Under the pieces are notes generated by a model. That model did not search any database. It was given only the letters and a program-made list of their open reading frames with translations, and was not told where the DNA came from. The position numbers were made by a program, and so were the translations under genes. From contig VBAC01000001.1 of assembly GCA_005883305.1 (NCBI GenBank), forward strand, positions 2,294,001 to 2,358,000: a stretch of 64,000 nt of DNA, written 5' to 3'. Of this stretch, positions 19,520 through 25,450 are shown piece by piece; positions within the stretch are counted from its first letter, which is position 1, and each line of letters opens with the position of its first letter. Source of the DNA: Alphaproteobacteria bacterium (GTDB lineage Bacteria > Pseudomonadota > Alphaproteobacteria > Sphingomonadales > Sphingomonadaceae).

Positions 19520-20451
19520 GCGTCGCGCTGGTTCTGGTCGAGCACGAAGACGGGGCGATCAGGGACGCCACCCTGGCCGCCGTCACCGCCGCCTCGCAGC
19601 TCGGCGAGGTTCACGCGCTGGTCGCCGGGCAGGGCGTCGGCGCCGTCGCCGAGGCCGCCGCCAAGATCGCCGGCGTGACCAGGGTCCATGTCGCCGACGG
19701 CGCCCCTTACGCCCACCAGCTGGCCGAGAATGTCGCCCCGGTCGCCGCCGCTTTGGTGCGCGACCATTGCGACTATTTCGTCGCCGCCGCCACCACGACG
19801 GGCAAGAACGTCGCTCCGCGCGTCGCCGCCCTGCTCGACGTCATGCAGATCAGCGAGATCCTCTCCGTCGAAGGGCCGGACACGTTCACCCGGCCGATCT
19901 ACGCCGGCAACGCGATCGCCACGGTTAGATCGTCCGACTCCAAGAAGGTGATCACCGTTCGCGGCACGGCGTTCGAGAAGGCCGAGAAAGAGGGCGGCAA
20001 CGGCGTCGTCGAGCCCTTTGCGGGCGGCGGCGATTCGGGCCTGTCCTCGTTCGTCGGCGCAGAGCTCAGCAAGTCCGAGCGGCCCGAGCTTACGAGCGCC
20101 AAGATCATCGTCTCGGGCGGCCGCGCCTTCGGCTCCTCGGAGCAGTTCCACGCGCTTCTCGATCCGCTCGCCGACAAGCTCAAGGCCGGAGTGGGCGCCA
20201 GCCGCGCGGCGGTCGACGCCGGCTACGCGCCGAACGACTATCAGGTCGGCCAGACCGGCAAGATCGTCGCCCCCGAAGTCTATATCGCGATCGGCATTTC
20301 GGGCGCGATCCAGCACCTCGCGGGCATGAAGGATTCGAAGGTCATCGTGGCCATCAATAAGGACGAGGACGCCCCGATCTTCCAGGTCGCCGACGTCGGC
20401 CTGGTCGGCGACCTGTTCAAGATCGTCCCGGAGCTGACGGAGAAACTCTAG
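19516..20451 (+). CDS. etfA: Electron transfer flavoprotein alpha subunit
   Basis: 311 residues. The N-terminal domain begins [20 protein letters not shown]. The C-terminal FAD domain has [52 protein letters not shown] in pieces, and the closing [22 protein letters not shown]. It is partner to etfB. Its TAG stop shares a CTAG with the TAG of the convergent minus-strand gene, so the two ends overlap by four bases with no room for a separate terminator. Confidence 0.97.
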
Positions 20452-20960
20452 CGCCGGCCGGGCTGCGGCATCGGCCAGATCCGGAACGCGGCCCAGTCAA
20501 CGGTATCGAGTCGGCAGGCCGGCGACGCAGCGATCGCGATCACCGGGGCCCGCGGCACGGCGATTCCGACCCGATTGGCCCAATTCTGCAGACGCTCCGA
20601 GACCACCGGAATGAAGCGCGGGAAGCTCGGGCCGGTCGCGCCGCGATAATGATAATAGGTGGGGCCGATGGCGGCCGTCTCCTCGGTGAAGCGTTCGCGC
20701 AAATAGCCTTGGGTGAGCGCGTTCGTCGCGACCAGGGTGCAGCTTCCCCTTCGTGCCACGACATGATCGAACAGATGGTGCGCCACCACGGCCGTGCGAA
20801 AGCCCCGCGCGGTCAGCGCCGCCGCCATGTCCCGCGCCAGCCGCGCGGCGTCCGGCTCCCCGATCCTCCCGACGCCGATCAGCTTCGGTGTAATCGTGAG
20901 GCCGATCAACACGGCGAAGACAAGGCTAAGCCGGAGCGCGCGCGACACGATAGAGCCCAA
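20448..20960 (-). CDS. Membrane-anchored periplasmic protein, probable exosortase accessory
   Basis: 170 residues with one N-terminal membrane segment (about 8-26, ALRLSLVFAVLIGLTITPK) and a periplasmic domain of about 140 residues. Visible landmarks are VVAHHLFDHVVARRGSCTLVATNALTQGYL, GPTYYHYRG, and a second Cys in ASPACRLDTVDW. The Cys pair may form a disulfide. It overlaps the exosortase gene by 35 bases on the same strand, so the two are co-expressed. Exosortase loci often encode a small single-pass periplasmic partner of the EpsI type. I do not recognise the family itself, so the accessory role rests on position and topology. Confidence 0.65.
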   Translation of the reverse strand: MGSIVSRALRLSLVFAVLIGLTITPKLIGVGRIGEPDAARLARDMAAALTARGFRTAVVAHHLFDHVVARRGSCTLVATNALTQGYLRERFTEETAAIGPTYYHYRGATGPSFPRFIPVVSERLQNWANRVGIAVPRAPVIAIAASPACRLDTVDWAAFRIWPMPQPGRR

Positions 20961-21762
20961 CGCCGATCACTGCGCCGGTCAGGATCAGGCTTGCCCAGGC
21001 GGCCAATTGGCGGCCGCCGCCCTCATGCAGATAATGATAATGTTCGGGCCACAGGCCGAGCGCCGCCAGACGGCCGGTATTGGCGAGGATCGTCGCAGCG
21101 ATCGCGGCGGCCGCGACCGGCACCAGCCGGCGCGACAGCGGGATATCGAGCAGCTGGGTGAGCACGACGAGAAGCAGCAGGGCGATCGAGACATTCGCCA
21201 GTGACGAGCAGCCTCCAGCAACGATGAACGTCGCGCTGCCGTCGTACGAGCGAAACACATTGCCTGCGGTCGGAAGCCCCGTTCCGGCGCCGATGATTAC
21301 CGCCTCGAGTCGCGTGATCTCCGGCCCAAGCAGGTTGATGCAGGCAGGCCCCCAGAGCAATGGCCCGGTGGCGGCCAGCGCGATCAGCGCCAACTTGCGC
21401 AGCGGGGTTCGCGGCTCCGTCGTCCGCAGCAAATAGAGCGCCGTGGAGAACAGGGCGACCGATGCAGCGGCCACCACCGGGAGCAAGCAACAGATCAACA
21501 GCAGCGCAGCGACATATTTGTCGGCTCGGCGCAGTGGTGCGGCGACGCCGTCGCCCAGCGCGCTCTTGATGATCGCATAGAGAGCGAACCAAAGAACCGC
21601 GTCCACGCCGAGCAGCGAGAAAAGCGCAGTCTCATAGCCTGTCGCCAGAGCGCCGGATATGCGCGCCGCTAGACCGTTGAGCAAAGCGAGGGCCAGCAGG
21701 AGCGCGAACAGGTCGGTGCGGGCGGGCCAGCCGCCGCGCACATCGGCAACGTTCGACGTCAC
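20926..21762 (-). CDS. Exosortase/archaeosortase family protein
   Basis: 278 residues from a GTG. About eight transmembrane helices fill the protein. The exosortase catalytic triad is in place: Cys185 in IVAGGCSSLANVSIALLL, Arg231 in LANTGRLAALG, and His246 in HYHYLHEGGGRQLAAW, each at the periplasmic edge of a helix as the family requires. Exosortases cleave and transfer proteins bearing PEP-CTERM-like C-terminal signals, often in organisms making exopolysaccharide. A 58-residue protein with such a signal ends 13 bases upstream on the same strand, and a probable accessory overlaps downstream. The sequence does not look like the usual EpsH-type XrtA, so it may be a dedicated, single-substrate form. 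Confidence 0.8.
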   Translation of the reverse strand: MTSNVADVRGGWPARTDLFALLLALALLNGLAARISGALATGYETALFSLLGVDAVLWFALYAIIKSALGDGVAAPLRRADKYVAALLLICCLLPVVAAASVALFSTALYLLRTTEPRTPLRKLALIALAATGPLLWGPACINLLGPEITRLEAVIIGAGTGLPTAGNVFRSYDGSATFIVAGGCSSLANVSIALLLLVVLTQLLDIPLSRRLVPVAAAAIAATILANTGRLAALGLWPEHYHYLHEGGGRQLAAWASLILTGAVIGVGLYRVARAPA

Positions 21763-21775
21763 GTCGCGACGCGGA

Positions 21776-21952
21776 TCAGCGGCGGGCGATCCGCCTCTTG
21801 AGGTAGAGATAGCCAGTTCCGATCAAAGCCATCGCGCCCATTCCGACCCCCGCCTCCGGGGCCGGGACCGGGATCCCGGCGATTGCCGGGGCTGCGCCAA
21901 GGCAGATGCCGGCGGCGAACGCAGCGGCGAAAAGCGCAGTGTGTCTGGCCAT
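21776..21952 (-). CDS. 58-residue exosortase substrate: signal peptide plus PEP-CTERM-like tail
   Basis: Starts at ATG 21952 behind a strong ribosome site (gggagga, complement of 21958-21964). Residues 1-26 are a signal peptide (MARHTALFAAAFAAGICLGA, then APAIAG). Residues 28-33 read PVPAPE, followed by a hydrophobic helix (AGVGMGAMALIGTGYLYL) and a basic tail KRRIARR. That is the tripartite exosortase sorting signal: a P-x-P-E-like motif, a transmembrane segment and an Arg cluster. Cleavage at both signals would leave almost no mature protein. Longer in-frame readings upstream (to 22099) lack the ribosome site and bury the signal peptide. It is followed at once by the exosortase gene. Confidence 0.72.
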   Translation of the reverse strand: MARHTALFAAAFAAGICLGAAPAIAGIPVPAPEAGVGMGAMALIGTGYLYLKRRIARR

Positions 21953-22040
21953 CGAAATCCTCCCGATCAGGCGGCGCACGTGCCGGTTCAGATTGAAGGC
22001 TAGAGCCGGACGGGCTACTTGGCAAGCGGGAGGGCCGGGC

Positions 22041-23093
22041 GTGCAGGAAGCGAACCAACTCGAGCGTCTGGGCATGCTGCTCGCCGGCAACCTTGCCATC
22101 GCCTATGTCGGTTTTTTCGTCGCCTTCGCGGGGCTGGAGGCCGCGTTCAGCAAGGGGCGCGATCCGGGATCCTCGGCGCACGGCCGGCTGATCGTCAATT
22201 TCAGCCTGCCAATCGCATCGGGGCTGATCGCGCTGATCATTCCCTTCGGAGTCACCACGTCGGCCTATTTCGCCGAGCAGCGGCAATGGGGATTGTTCCA
22301 TCAGATCGATGCGCCGGCGCTGATCGTACTGATCGCGGCGATGCTGTCGCGGACCGGCCTCGGCTATCTGGTGCACAGGCTGAGCCATGCCGTCCCTTGG
22401 CTGTGGCGACTCCACAAGGTTCACCATTGCGATCCGCACGTCGATATCTCGCTCAGCCTGCGCCATCATCCGCTTGAGCTGCTCCCCGGACTATTGGTCT
22501 TCTCGGCAGGCACCCTGCTGCTCGGCTTGCCGGTATGGTCGGTCGCCCTGGTCGAGGCGGTGTTGATCGCGGCCGGCTATTCGGATCATCTCGATGTCCG
22601 CCTGCCGCCGCGCGCGGCGCAATGGCTTCGCCTCCTGTTCGTGACCCCCGAGGTCCACCACCTCCATCATTCCGCCGAGCGCGCGCAGACCGACAGCAAT
22701 TTCGGCAGCCTGTTGATCTGCTGGGATCGGCTGTTCACGACCTATCGCGAGCCAGGGTCTGAAATCGTTCATCGCTACGGCCTCGACGAGATCGACGCCG
22801 GCGATGCCAACAGCCTGTGGGCCCAGCTGGCACTGCCCTTTGTCCGCGCCGCCGGAGCGGCCCGGCGAGTCCCGGCGTTGACCGGGACGCAGAGCACCGC
22901 CCGAAACGCGTCCGAGACCAGGACGAGGACGAGCATGTGGCGCTTATCGGAATCCCGCCAGGAACGATGCGACGTTGGTGCCGAGCGCGTCGACGGCATA
23001 GCCGCCTTCCATGACGATCAGGCTCTGCTTACCGAGCGATGCGATACGGCGCCCGACGGCGCGATAATCCCCCGTCTCCAACCGGAAGTGTGA
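22041..23093 (+). CDS. Sterol desaturase / fatty acid hydroxylase superfamily protein
   Basis: 350 residues from a GTG with gggaggg nine bases upstream. Four to five membrane helices and the three histidine boxes of the di-iron hydroxylases: HRLSH at 112-116, HKVHH at 125-129 and HHLHH at 206-210. A further RHHP is at 141. The family hydroxylates or desaturates membrane lipids. The homologous part seems to end near LALPFVRAA (residue 271). The last 70-80 residues are hydrophilic, Arg/Thr-rich and overlap the 3' end of the convergent deacetylase by 150 bases, so they look like read-through after loss of a stop. It is divergent from the exosortase substrate across 88 bases, which must hold both promoters. 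Confidence 0.85.
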   Translation: MQEANQLERLGMLLAGNLAIAYVGFFVAFAGLEAAFSKGRDPGSSAHGRLIVNFSLPIASGLIALIIPFGVTTSAYFAEQRQWGLFHQIDAPALIVLIAAMLSRTGLGYLVHRLSHAVPWLWRLHKVHHCDPHVDISLSLRHHPLELLPGLLVFSAGTLLLGLPVWSVALVEAVLIAAGYSDHLDVRLPPRAAQWLRLLFVTPEVHHLHHSAERAQTDSNFGSLLICWDRLFTTYREPGSEIVHRYGLDEIDAGDANSLWAQLALPFVRAAGAARRVPALTGTQSTARNASETRTRTSMWRLSESRQERCDVGAERVDGIAAFHDDQALLTERCDTAPDGAIIPRLQPEV

Positions 23094-23948
23094 AATCGGA
23101 TCGCCGGAGAAGGTGTCGGCGCCGTAGGAGATGACGAGCAGATCCGCCGCGAAGGCGTCGATCCGTGCCAGCGCCCGCTCGAGGGCCGGGATATAGGCGC
23201 CGAGATCGGTCCCGCGGGGCAGCGGCAGGTTGAGCGTCGCGCCTTGCCCGTCGCCCTCGCCGCTTTCGTCGGCATGGCCCCAGAAATAGGGGTAATCCAT
23301 CACGGGATCGGCGTGGATCGAGACGAACAGCACGTCGCCGCGATCGTAGAAAATGTCCTGCGTGCCGTTGCCGTGGTGATAGTCGATGTCGAGGATCGCC
23401 ACCCGCCTGCCGGACTTTACCGCGGCCTCGGCGGCGATCGCGGCGTTGTTCAGGTAGCAATAGCCGCCGAGATAGTCGGCCCCGGCATGGTGGCCGGGCG
23501 GACGGCAGAGCGCGAACGCCGGCCCCTCGCCGTCGAGCACGGCATCCAGCGCGGTGAGCGCCGTCTGCACCGACCAATAGGCGCCCTCCCAAGTCCCGGC
23601 CGCGATCGGGCTCGATGCGTCGAAGCTGTAGAGGCCGAGCCTGGCGTCGATCCGGTTCAGGTCGAGCGGCCGGCGGCGGACGACGGGCCAGGCATAGCCG
23701 CCGGCATCGCCCTCTCGCCCGGCCGCCCGCCAGTCGCGGTGCGCCGATCGCAGGAACGCGAGATAGGCCTCGCCGTGCACGGCGCGCAGCGGCGCCTCGC
23801 CATGGTCGCGGGCCGGCTCGGTCCCGCCGAGCGCGGCGCGGATCGATTCGGCGCGCGCCGGAGTCTCGGCGAACGGCACGAAGCCGCCATTGTGCAGCTC
23901 CAGCGTCGGCGCGTGGGCGGACTGTCGCAAGTCGAAAAAGCATCGCAT
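22944..23948 (-). CDS. Histone deacetylase family protein (acetylpolyamine amidohydrolase-like)
   Basis: 334 residues. It has the zinc deacetylase motifs CRPPGHHAGADYLGGYCYLNN (His pair and Gly-rich turn) split around residue 150, LDIDYHHGNGTQDIFY (zinc-binding Asp and His), SIHADP and a C-terminal MEGGYAVDALG, with YGADTFSGDPIS carrying the last zinc Asp. It fits the class II/AphA-like bacterial deacetylases that act on acetylpolyamines or other small N-acetyl compounds; the substrate is not readable. There is no signal peptide. It converges on, and overlaps, the hydroxylase gene. Confidence 0.9.
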   Translation of the reverse strand: MRCFFDLRQSAHAPTLELHNGGFVPFAETPARAESIRAALGGTEPARDHGEAPLRAVHGEAYLAFLRSAHRDWRAAGREGDAGGYAWPVVRRRPLDLNRIDARLGLYSFDASSPIAAGTWEGAYWSVQTALTALDAVLDGEGPAFALCRPPGHHAGADYLGGYCYLNNAAIAAEAAVKSGRRVAILDIDYHHGNGTQDIFYDRGDVLFVSIHADPVMDYPYFWGHADESGEGDGQGATLNLPLPRGTDLGAYIPALERALARIDAFAADLLVISYGADTFSGDPISHFRLETGDYRAVGRRIASLGKQSLIVMEGGYAVDALGTNVASFLAGFR

Positions 23949-24103
23949 CAGCCCCGGTCCTTGCCGAATATTGCGGCGACGGCGTCCCTATTCATGCGTC
24001 CCCTATTCTCCTCTTGCCAATCCGCCGGACGTTGGTCCATTTTGAACTCCGAATCGAGGGTGGGTTTCGGAACTTGCTTTTTACGCTGCTCGACGCCGGG
24101 GAT

Positions 24104-25450
24104 ATGATCCTTCGCGAACTGATCCTGTTCGCCGCCGTCGGCTTCCTTTTTCTCGGCGTTAGCGACCTCGGCGTCGATCTTCTCTATCTCGCCCTCCGGC
24201 TGAAGAGGTTCGTCCTGGGCGGCGGACCGCAATCCGCTGCCACGCCCCCGACCGCGATGCAACCGGGCCGAATCGCCGTGTTCATTCCGGCATGGGACGA
24301 ATCGGAGGTGATCGCGCCCATGCTCGACCACGCGCAGCGGGCGTTCGGGGACTCGGACTATCGCCTCTACGTCGGCTGCTACCCGAACGATCCGGCGACG
24401 ATCGCGGCGGTGCGTTCGGCGGCCGGGCCGAAGGTTCGGCTGGTCGTCACGCCGTCGCCGGGACCGACCACCAAGGCCGATTGCCTCAACGCCATGTGGT
24501 CGCGGATGCGCGCGGACGAGCGCGACGAGCGCGTGCGCTTCAAGGCGGTCGTGCTCCACGATGCCGAGGATGTGGTGCACGCCGACGAGCTTGGCCTGTT
24601 CGACGCGCTGATCGAGCAGTTCGACCTCGTCCAGCTTCCGGTGCTTCCGCTGGTCGACCAGAGGTCGCGCTGGATCGCCGGGCATTATATCGACGAGTTC
24701 GCCGAAGCGCATGGCAAGGAGATGGTCGTTCGCGAGGCGCTGGGGGCAAGCATCCCTGCGGCGGGCGTCGGCTGCGCCATTTCGCGCCGGGTGCTCGATG
24801 CGCTTTCGCGGCGCTACGGCCTTCCCTTCGACCCCGGCAGCCTGACCGAGGATTACGAGCTCGGCCTAAGGCTGCGGGCCGCCGGCTACCCGGCCGCGTT
24901 CGTCCGGTTGCCGGGTGGCACGGGCCGCGCGGTCGTCGCCACGCGCGAATATTTCCCAGGCACGATCCACGCCGCGGTGACGCAGAAGGCGCGATGGATG
25001 GCAGGGATCGCGCTGGCCGGCTGGGACCGGCTCGGCTGGGAGGGCGGACCGGCCGAATTCTGGATGCGGCTGCGCGACCGGCAGTCGGTGTTCGCCGCGC
25101 TGCTGCTCTTCACCGGCTATTTGGCTCTGATCCTGGGCCCGGCGCTGGCGTTGGCGGGGTGGAGCGTGGGCCGCCCGGCCGAGCCTTTTTCCCGGCCAAT
25201 GCTGGTCCTGCTGGCCACGAACTCGGTTCTGCTGCTGTGGCGGCTGGCCATGCGCTTCGCCTTCGTCGCCGCGGCCTATGGCTGGCGCGAGGGCTTCCGC
25301 GCGCTGCCGCGGACCGTGACCGGAAACATCATCGCGATGATGGCGGCGAGACGAGCGGCCGGCAATTATCTGACGATGGTGCGGACCGGGCGGCCAACGG
25401 CGTGGGACAAGACGGCGCACGCTTTTCCGGGTCCGGGGCAGGGCGAATGA
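24104..25450 (+). CDS. NfrB-like glycosyltransferase family 2 membrane protein
   Basis: 448 residues. A membrane helix at about 5-25 (ELILFAAVGFLFLGVSDL), then a GT2 domain: VFIPAWDESEVIAPML, the DxD-like VVLHDAEDVVHADE, the acceptor-site TEDYELGLRL (base Glu-Asp) and QKARWM (the Q-x-x-R-W motif of processive enzymes). Two or more helices follow at 325-400. It matches the N-terminal half of NfrB (phage N4 adsorption protein B), which builds a surface glycan in E. coli. The start codon overlap of the next gene (ATGA) and that gene's identity support the assignment. An upstream open frame to 23615 runs antisense to the deacetylase and is rejected. Confidence 0.85.
   Translation: MILRELILFAAVGFLFLGVSDLGVDLLYLALRLKRFVLGGGPQSAATPPTAMQPGRIAVFIPAWDESEVIAPMLDHAQRAFGDSDYRLYVGCYPNDPATIAAVRSAAGPKVRLVVTPSPGPTTKADCLNAMWSRMRADERDERVRFKAVVLHDAEDVVHADELGLFDALIEQFDLVQLPVLPLVDQRSRWIAGHYIDEFAEAHGKEMVVREALGASIPAAGVGCAISRRVLDALSRRYGLPFDPGSLTEDYELGLRLRAAGYPAAFVRLPGGTGRAVVATREYFPGTIHAAVTQKARWMAGIALAGWDRLGWEGGPAEFWMRLRDRQSVFAALLLFTGYLALILGPALALAGWSVGRPAEPFSRPMLVLLATNSVLLLWRLAMRFAFVAAAYGWREGFRALPRTVTGNIIAMMAARRAAGNYLTMVRTGRPTAWDKTAHAFPGPGQGE

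Follow-up and report, generated by a model that had tools for sequence, protein, structure and literature searches.

What does a sorting enzyme do when the only substrate encoded beside it has nothing to sort? This question is raised by a locus in a 64,000-nucleotide stretch of DNA (the window) from an Alphaproteobacteria bacterium of the Sphingomonadaceae (assembly GCA_005883305.1, contig VBAC01000001.1, positions 2,294,001 to 2,358,000), in which three closely packed genes run along the minus strand from 21952 to 20448 and encode a small target protein, an exosortase and an accessory protein. An original prediction had described these genes as encoding a 58-residue protein, an exosortase and a periplasmic protein with one helix, and our reading of the window's open reading frames (ORFs) places all three where it had put them. 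The genes are real, and the unit extends further than had been supposed, to a divergent gene of the membrane fatty acid hydroxylase superfamily (FAH; 22074..23093, plus strand) that had been overlooked. We have little doubt that the locus is a dedicated exosortase cassette with a real target, kept by selection, that lacks a payload. We further propose that such a cassette produces a very short surface peptide rather than sorting a protein, an overall reading to which we give not quite an even chance.

The target protein of the window (21776..21952, minus strand; 58 residues) consists of sorting signals only, as had been predicted: a signal peptide (read by eye) to residue 25 that ends in AIA, then GIPVPAPE and AG, followed by a hydrophobic segment and KRRIARR. 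By pattern and hydropathy the protein has an N-terminal signal peptide and the tripartite architecture of a PEP-CTERM-like tail, that is a motif, a hydrophobic helix and a basic end. The start codon at 21952 is closely preceded by GGGAGG. The frame stays open upstream and would give 107 residues if translation began at the ATG at 22099, and we favor 21952 because of the ribosome site, the signal peptide that starts there, and two relatives introduced below (G558 and G093) that open at the same point. The exosortase gene begins with GTG 13 bp past the target's stop codon, and its 3' end is overlapped by the accessory gene.

The order target, exosortase, accessory gene recurs in 15 loci of one Sphingomonadales family. 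Searches with the exosortase led to ten other genomes of the family: G203 (Sphingomonadales bacterium EhC05, contig LXYP01000006), G093 (a metagenome-assembled genome of Erythrobacteraceae), G043, G123, G011, G095, G420, G518, G555 and G558. In each of the ten, the exosortase is preceded by a target and followed by the accessory gene. A search of 26 genomes of the window's genus with the 28-residue tail led to G1006 and G1009, neither of which had contributed to the tail profile, and both proved to have FAH. A search with an FAH profile led to G1011 and G1002, which had likewise been left out of the profile used, and each has an exosortase and a payload-free target. Targets are payload-free and 51-60 residues long in 12 of the 15 loci (starts were picked by eye, and several frames open further upstream), so the expectation that relatives would keep the gene order with a short target held in these 12 and failed in the other three, where 61-110 residues separate the AxA site from the end of the motif. 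The cassette is rare, with 7 of 397 genomes carrying it in the largest draw from the family; the genome draws overlap, cannot be added and each include the window genome (7/298, 10/396, 7/397, 12/385 and 5/398). Four partial exosortase matches (G348, G484, G855 and G623; 66-145 model positions) were left out on score and length with their loci unread, and G1229, although listed in a search, is not part of these counts.

What would be left of a payload-free target after cleavage at both ends is strikingly uniform in length. Each of the 14 payload-free targets tabulated has 8-10 residues between the AxA site and the last residue of the four-residue motif, this residue included. In the window this predicted leftover is GIPVPAPE (residues 26-33; 21854..21877, minus strand), bounded by a putative signal-peptidase site and a putative cut at PxPx|AG. 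In the nine single-target genomes tabulated, the window's included, Gly is always the first residue: the other eight leftovers are GMPIPSPE, GVAVPAPV, GTPITPAPV, GQTNVAPGPE, GVPATPGPE, GLPATPAPI, GVVVPAPI and GIILPTPGPM, and by eye G1011 and G1002 follow the same Gly-first pattern. Across loci the motif is PxPx[AIL][GA], in which Glu is replaceable. The PVPAPE of the original prediction is no PEP motif.

Several lines of evidence indicate that these targets are genuine. G093 encodes four payload-free targets in tandem before its exosortase and a fifth on another contig, and the tails of the tandem copies differ at 33-58% of synonymous sites versus 2-13% of non-synonymous sites; these tails are under purifying selection. 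A search pattern for the architecture, drawn up after targets had been seen, is matched by one ORF in the window; 40 Markov-1 sequences, each 64 kb long, contain no match. Applied to 21 related loci (382,796 bp) with 11 payload-free targets among them, the pattern picks out nine ORFs, all of them true targets, and overlooks the two in G095 and G558. Together, conservation, the synonymous-site bias and the pattern control rule out a chance ORF.

The targets are largely invisible to existing models. The PEP-CTERM model TIGR02595 scores the window target at 12.6 bits, below its cut-off of 16, and is listed for two of the five other targets scanned (11.8 and 12.9 bits). No named tail model is passed by the window target or by four of these five; the exception is the target of a distant homologue, G714, which clears the cut-off of the general LPXTG anchor model (18.5 bits versus 15.9). 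In the whole window genome TIGR02595 finds nothing at E<=0.1, so the longer PEP-CTERM proteins that might have been the real substrates of this exosortase did not turn up. A profile of the tail itself, applied to the first 11 genomes at E<=0.01, finds only the locus's own target in ten, and in G093 it finds five proteins, all payload-free. Weaker matches (E >0.01) were left uncounted, and among the 17 whose loci were read, none has PxPx[AIL][GA] at the C-terminus. The idea of a dedicated exosortase is upheld to this extent, as the only recognizable target is payload-free. The profile is incompletely sensitive, in that it missed the true targets of G1011 and G1002, and with that limit the cassettes look like one-target systems.

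The second gene of the cassette encodes a divergent exosortase of 278 residues (20926..21762, minus strand). It matches TIGR04178, the exosortase/archaeosortase signature, at 23.7 bits (cut-off 23), as do 10 of 11 family members at E<=0.01. The residues named in the original prediction, Cys185 (codon 21208-21210), Arg231 (21070-21072) and His246 (21025-21027; all minus strand), are in place and invariant in all 20 aligned sequences, the window's among them, and the exosortases of ten aligned relatives are 33-39% identical to that of the window. The suggested comparison with the Xrt subfamily models leaves the window protein with the general signature only: it falls below the cut-offs of the named Xrt/Art subfamilies in NCBIfam 20.0 (for instance, 12.4 bits versus 250 for XrtO and 13.2 versus 100 for ArtC), and other exosortases of the family give weak E-value matches to CrtA, XrtP, XrtT, ArtC, XrtD and CrtC. 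PF09721 (Exosortase_EpsH) reaches 19.4 bits on the window exosortase in a whole-genome search, below the gathering threshold of 25.7, is not listed for it by hmmscan at E<=1, and matches two of 20 homologues at E<=0.01. By signature and predicted active site, the protein is a member of the exosortase/archaeosortase family, and the window protein is in no named subfamily.

The third gene (20448..20948, minus strand, 5' end approximate) encodes an accessory protein of about 165 residues with an N-terminal helix and a periplasmic alpha/beta domain. It lies downstream of the exosortase in all 15 family loci, two of them clipped by the end of the fetched locus, and two Cys (69 and 144 in alignment numbering) are invariant in 17 of 17 sequences. 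The window protein has no Pfam or NCBIfam match above cut-off. The predicted structures of the accessory protein (pLDDT, the predicted local distance difference test, 91) and of the exosortase (AlphaFold2; pLDDT 92) give fold confidence only, because neither has a PDB match: at E<=0.001 nothing is found for either (best 0.19 and 0.26, respectively). A sequence search of solved structures returned two TatC sequences at E 0.002, which we judge to be chance. We also considered whether the accessory protein is EpsI. This identity finds no support among Pfam and NCBIfam matches, and a comparison by hhalign with a C-terminal region judged by eye to resemble EpsI gave a probability of 0.3%, which as a comparison with a single region is a weak test.

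A clue to what the cassette makes comes from the overlooked fourth gene. The FAH of the window matches PF04116 at 88.2 bits (cut-off 31), and its His clusters HX3H, HX2HH and HX2HH are invariant in the ten sequences compared. The nearest named model is OlsE, an ornithine-lipid headgroup hydroxylase (equivalog NF052566); it is the sole NCBIfam model that locus FAHs match at E<=0.01, with 73-85 bits in the three scanned (73 in the window), far under the cut-off of 475. In all 12 payload-free genomes FAH forms a divergent pair with a payload-free target, and none of the three loci with longer, Gly-rich targets has it. It lies within the exosortase locus in 11 of the 15 genomes. The exosortase contig of G093 stops 202 bases above the first target, leaving the position of FAH there unjudgeable, and the FAH of this genome is on another contig, divergent from the fifth payload-free target, where no exosortase is present. 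In the genome-wide lists for the Gly-rich genomes, every PF04116 match is on a contig other than that of the exosortase locus. When 11 family loci were compared, FAH was the only extra gene common to most of them (7/11). Target and FAH are separated by 121 bp in the window (21953..22073) and by 77-129 bp in 10 loci (the N-terminal point of FAH was picked by eye). This divergent region would presumably hold control signals for both transcripts; no sigma-70-like site was found between the two genes.

The pairing extends to close relatives. Among the 26 genomes of the window's genus there are five FAHs of at least 300 bits, all in loci with an exosortase and a payload-free target; three of these five had been used to build the profile, which leaves G1011 and G1002 as the new evidence. 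The next FAH, in G1008 (182 bits), has neither target nor exosortase in the region read. PF04116 gave 59 matches in all, of which 8 are paired; two of the remaining 51 yielded no FAH ORF, and five with low scores were kept outside the tree.

In three loci, G043, G123 and G011, the tail stands at the end of a Gly-rich protein that has a signal peptide, and it is these proteins that have 61-110 residues between AxA and motif end. In an exosortase tree rooted on distant homologues (84/83), the Gly-rich group is a single clade (99/96) nested in the payload-free set, which implies that gain of a payload and loss of FAH occurred on one branch. Within the family, the exosortase tree gives payload-free as the wider state. 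The window exosortase itself groups with that of G203 (97/94) and not with the four others from its genus, which make up a separate clade (100/99). This placement may reflect horizontal transfer or else an early divergence inside the genus.

Further afield, a profile finds the accessory gene at E<=0.1 in seven of ten loci with distant homologues from other Alphaproteobacteria, strongly in three. In three of the ten (G714, G972 and G823) the adjacent target ends in a tail like PGPxxGxGLP. The G823 target matches no tail model, and that of G714 passes none besides the LPXTG anchor model already mentioned; such tails apparently constitute an unnamed tail class.

Based on these data, we propose the following route. 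A precursor of 51-60 residues would be exported by Sec and cut by signal peptidase after AxA, which would leave a proline-rich peptide of 8-10 residues (GIPVPAPE in the window) held by the C-terminal helix and basic end. The Cys185/Arg231/His246 site would then cut PxPx|AG and, by the chemistry of archaeosortases and sortases, pass the new C-terminus to an acceptor. That the target is processed twice, down to a short peptide, we consider likely. The acceptor, judging from the genomic pairing, would most likely be an amine-bearing membrane lipid that FAH supplies or modifies, and the one-helix periplasmic accessory protein, being constantly adjacent, may aid the exosortase. Such a route would yield a lipopeptide of ribosomal origin. 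The original prediction had offered a lipid- or sugar-linked seed, a regulator and a peptide signal as possible roles; the FAH partner favors the lipid-linked option without proving it. We read the acceptor as a lipid because of the FAH pairing and the precedent of archaeosortase A, and put forward attachment to an FAH-dependent lipid as a tentative proposal, by analogy. The full class that this would define within the one Sphingomonadales family, in which an exosortase acts as a peptide-to-lipid ligase and a mostly Gly-initial peptide of 8-10 residues is joined through a C-terminal amide to a lipid made or tailored by FAH, is possible but on balance doubtful.

A number of observations weigh against this proposal. 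Both cuts and the attachment are predictions from sequence and genomic context. The switch in payload and FAH is one event on the tree, and hence the Fisher p = 0.002 overstates their correlation; moreover, two of the 12 payload-free loci were found via FAH itself. FAHs close to the locus type, with no target and no exosortase in the surroundings read, occur once each in G203, G095 and G1008, and in the tree the locus FAHs do not make a strict clade, with the paralogues of G203 and G095 falling among them; these target-less enzymes may reveal a general lipid role. OlsE is no more than a superfamily neighbor of FAH, whose lipid substrate is putative. PF13444 (OlsB-type) is absent from the window genome, and we have dropped ornithine lipid made via OlsB as the acceptor there; the OlsF route was not searched. 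The fetched stretches of the ten distant-homologue loci hold no FAH of the locus type, and by eye the targets of G714, G823, G972 and G726 carry a payload. In G093, Gly comes first in just one of five leftovers. The same-genus tail search also gave one false match (G1007, an ORF resembling a prepilin peptidase) and a match in G1003 (E 0.007) that was not counted, its locus being unread.

Of the alternatives, the one we take most seriously, while still thinking it unlikely, is that the small protein yields no processed product and instead acts, as a membrane hairpin of two helices or as a subunit, in regulating or assembling either the exosortase or the hydroxylase. Its unvarying position next to both genes and the lack of an evident payload would suit this role, as would the fifth G093 copy, which sits beside FAH and away from the exosortase. 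However, the protein keeps a full tripartite sorting tail together with an AxA site, five copies in one genome would be odd for a subunit, and in the three nested loci this tail terminates a longer Gly-rich protein that has a signal peptide and lies beside the same exosortase, as a substrate would. If processing does occur, the exosortase might merely hydrolyze its target and release the 8-10-residue peptide, which would serve as a diffusible signal or be surface-active, with FAH acting on an unrelated lipid. The leftovers are short, proline-rich, variable between species and mostly Gly-first, and several distinct ones occur within G093, all of which fits a released peptide, yet the pairing with FAH in 12 of 12 cases is left unexplained and we regard this as rather improbable.

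Alternatively, the acceptor may be a glycan, with the short peptide seeding or capping an exopolysaccharide. Two genes past FAH in the window there is a glycosyltransferase (PF13641, 137 bits), which also counts against a lipid and led us to raise the weight of the glycan slightly; the distant G715, G654, G815 and G829 adjoin glycosyltransferase-like ORFs by eye, and PEP-CTERM systems are linked to exopolysaccharide (PMC1569441). Nevertheless, the one extra gene shared by most of the 11 family loci is FAH, although other shared ORFs are partly unassigned and may include a glycan gene in some loci, and a glycan acceptor strikes us as improbable. Lastly, the target could be the decayed remnant of a longer substrate, without function today. 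Payload-bearing homologues do exist, but a remnant is hard to reconcile with purifying selection, with tandem amplification in G093, or with conservation in 12 genomes where the tree gives payload-free as the wider state, and we consider it very improbable. The lipopeptide proposal, tentative as it is, remains the one we prefer.

The genomic setting provides some further context. The window genome (3.03 Mb, 99.8% complete) encodes one further exosortase, a strong PF09721 match on contig 1 (886720-887469), whose C-terminal extension resembles EpsI and which has exopolysaccharide-type genes around it, both by eye. Because the TIGR02595 search of the genome came out empty, the targets of this other exosortase may have a tail outside the range of that model. 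We rule out that the target studied here serves it, given the absence of a TIGR02595 match and the fact that the tail tracks the divergent exosortase. In the window, a histone-deacetylase-family gene (PF00850, 227 bits; 22944-23948, minus strand) is convergent with FAH and overlaps its 3' end, and by eye a similar neighbor lies by FAH in G1011 and G1002. The glycosyltransferase, of family 2, follows at 23615-25450 (plus strand).

The cassette would offer a simple way in to the acceptor of a poorly understood family of sorting enzymes. Normal exosortase targets yield a large protein product on which the attached group is hard to see, and we know of no determination of that group. Here the whole product is estimated at under ~2 kDa, and it would come from only a few genes, with a candidate enzyme of lipid metabolism adjacent. 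If our proposal is true, it would give a direct view of what exosortases attach their substrates to. These loci also present sorting tails that selection has kept without cargo, and they suggest a simple search rule for further such systems.

How does the cassette compare with known sorting systems? N-acyl amino acid synthases, reportedly linked to PEP-CTERM/exosortase systems by Craig in 2011, are likewise lipid-making enzymes tied to exosortases, and belong to an enzyme family different from FAH. The original prediction had pointed to XrtE and VPEID-CTERM proteins as a single-target pair. Targets of such dedicated systems are not known to be other than proteins with a mature domain; in contrast, almost no mature sequence is left in the target here. 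The XrtA/PEP-CTERM systems likewise have a multi-pass exosortase, targets with a signal peptide and tripartite C-terminal tail, and a further protein, EpsI, encoded directly downstream of the enzyme (PMC1569441). They often have many long targets per genome and surrounding exopolysaccharide genes (PMC1569441), whereas here we find one payload-free target, an FAH partner, and no match to the PEP-CTERM model or EpsI. Cyanoexosortase B also has a protein of undefined function (CrtB-associated) directly downstream, and differs in its many PEP-CTERM targets (PMC12188702); the accessory protein has no NCBIfam match at E<=1 to the CrtB-associated model.

The precedent for a lipid acceptor is archaeosortase A/PGF-CTERM, a sorting enzyme coupled to lipid enzymes. 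In Methanosarcina, artA adjoins the lipid-headgroup genes pssA and pssD; the Haloferax homologues of PssA and PssD, which are not clustered in that genus, take part in the processing and lipid anchoring that depend on ArtA; and an ethanolamine lipid, to which the C-terminus would be transferred, has been proposed as the attacking amine for ArtA (PMC7157517). That system differs in being archaeal, in its large surface-protein targets and in its headgroup-making enzymes, where the cassette described here has a hydroxylase. In the open-licence literature searched, we found no exosortase with a payload-free target or a fatty acid hydroxylase partner, nothing on this cassette under exosortase with lipopeptide or exosortase with Sphingomonas (judged by title), and no paper that joins PEP-CTERM with sterol desaturase. 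Rhombosortase/GlyGly-CTERM is a dedicated system of one enzyme and one adjacent target (PMC3237569). One-target dedicated systems are already known in kind, and the features that set this cassette apart within the literature searched are a target without payload and an FAH partner.

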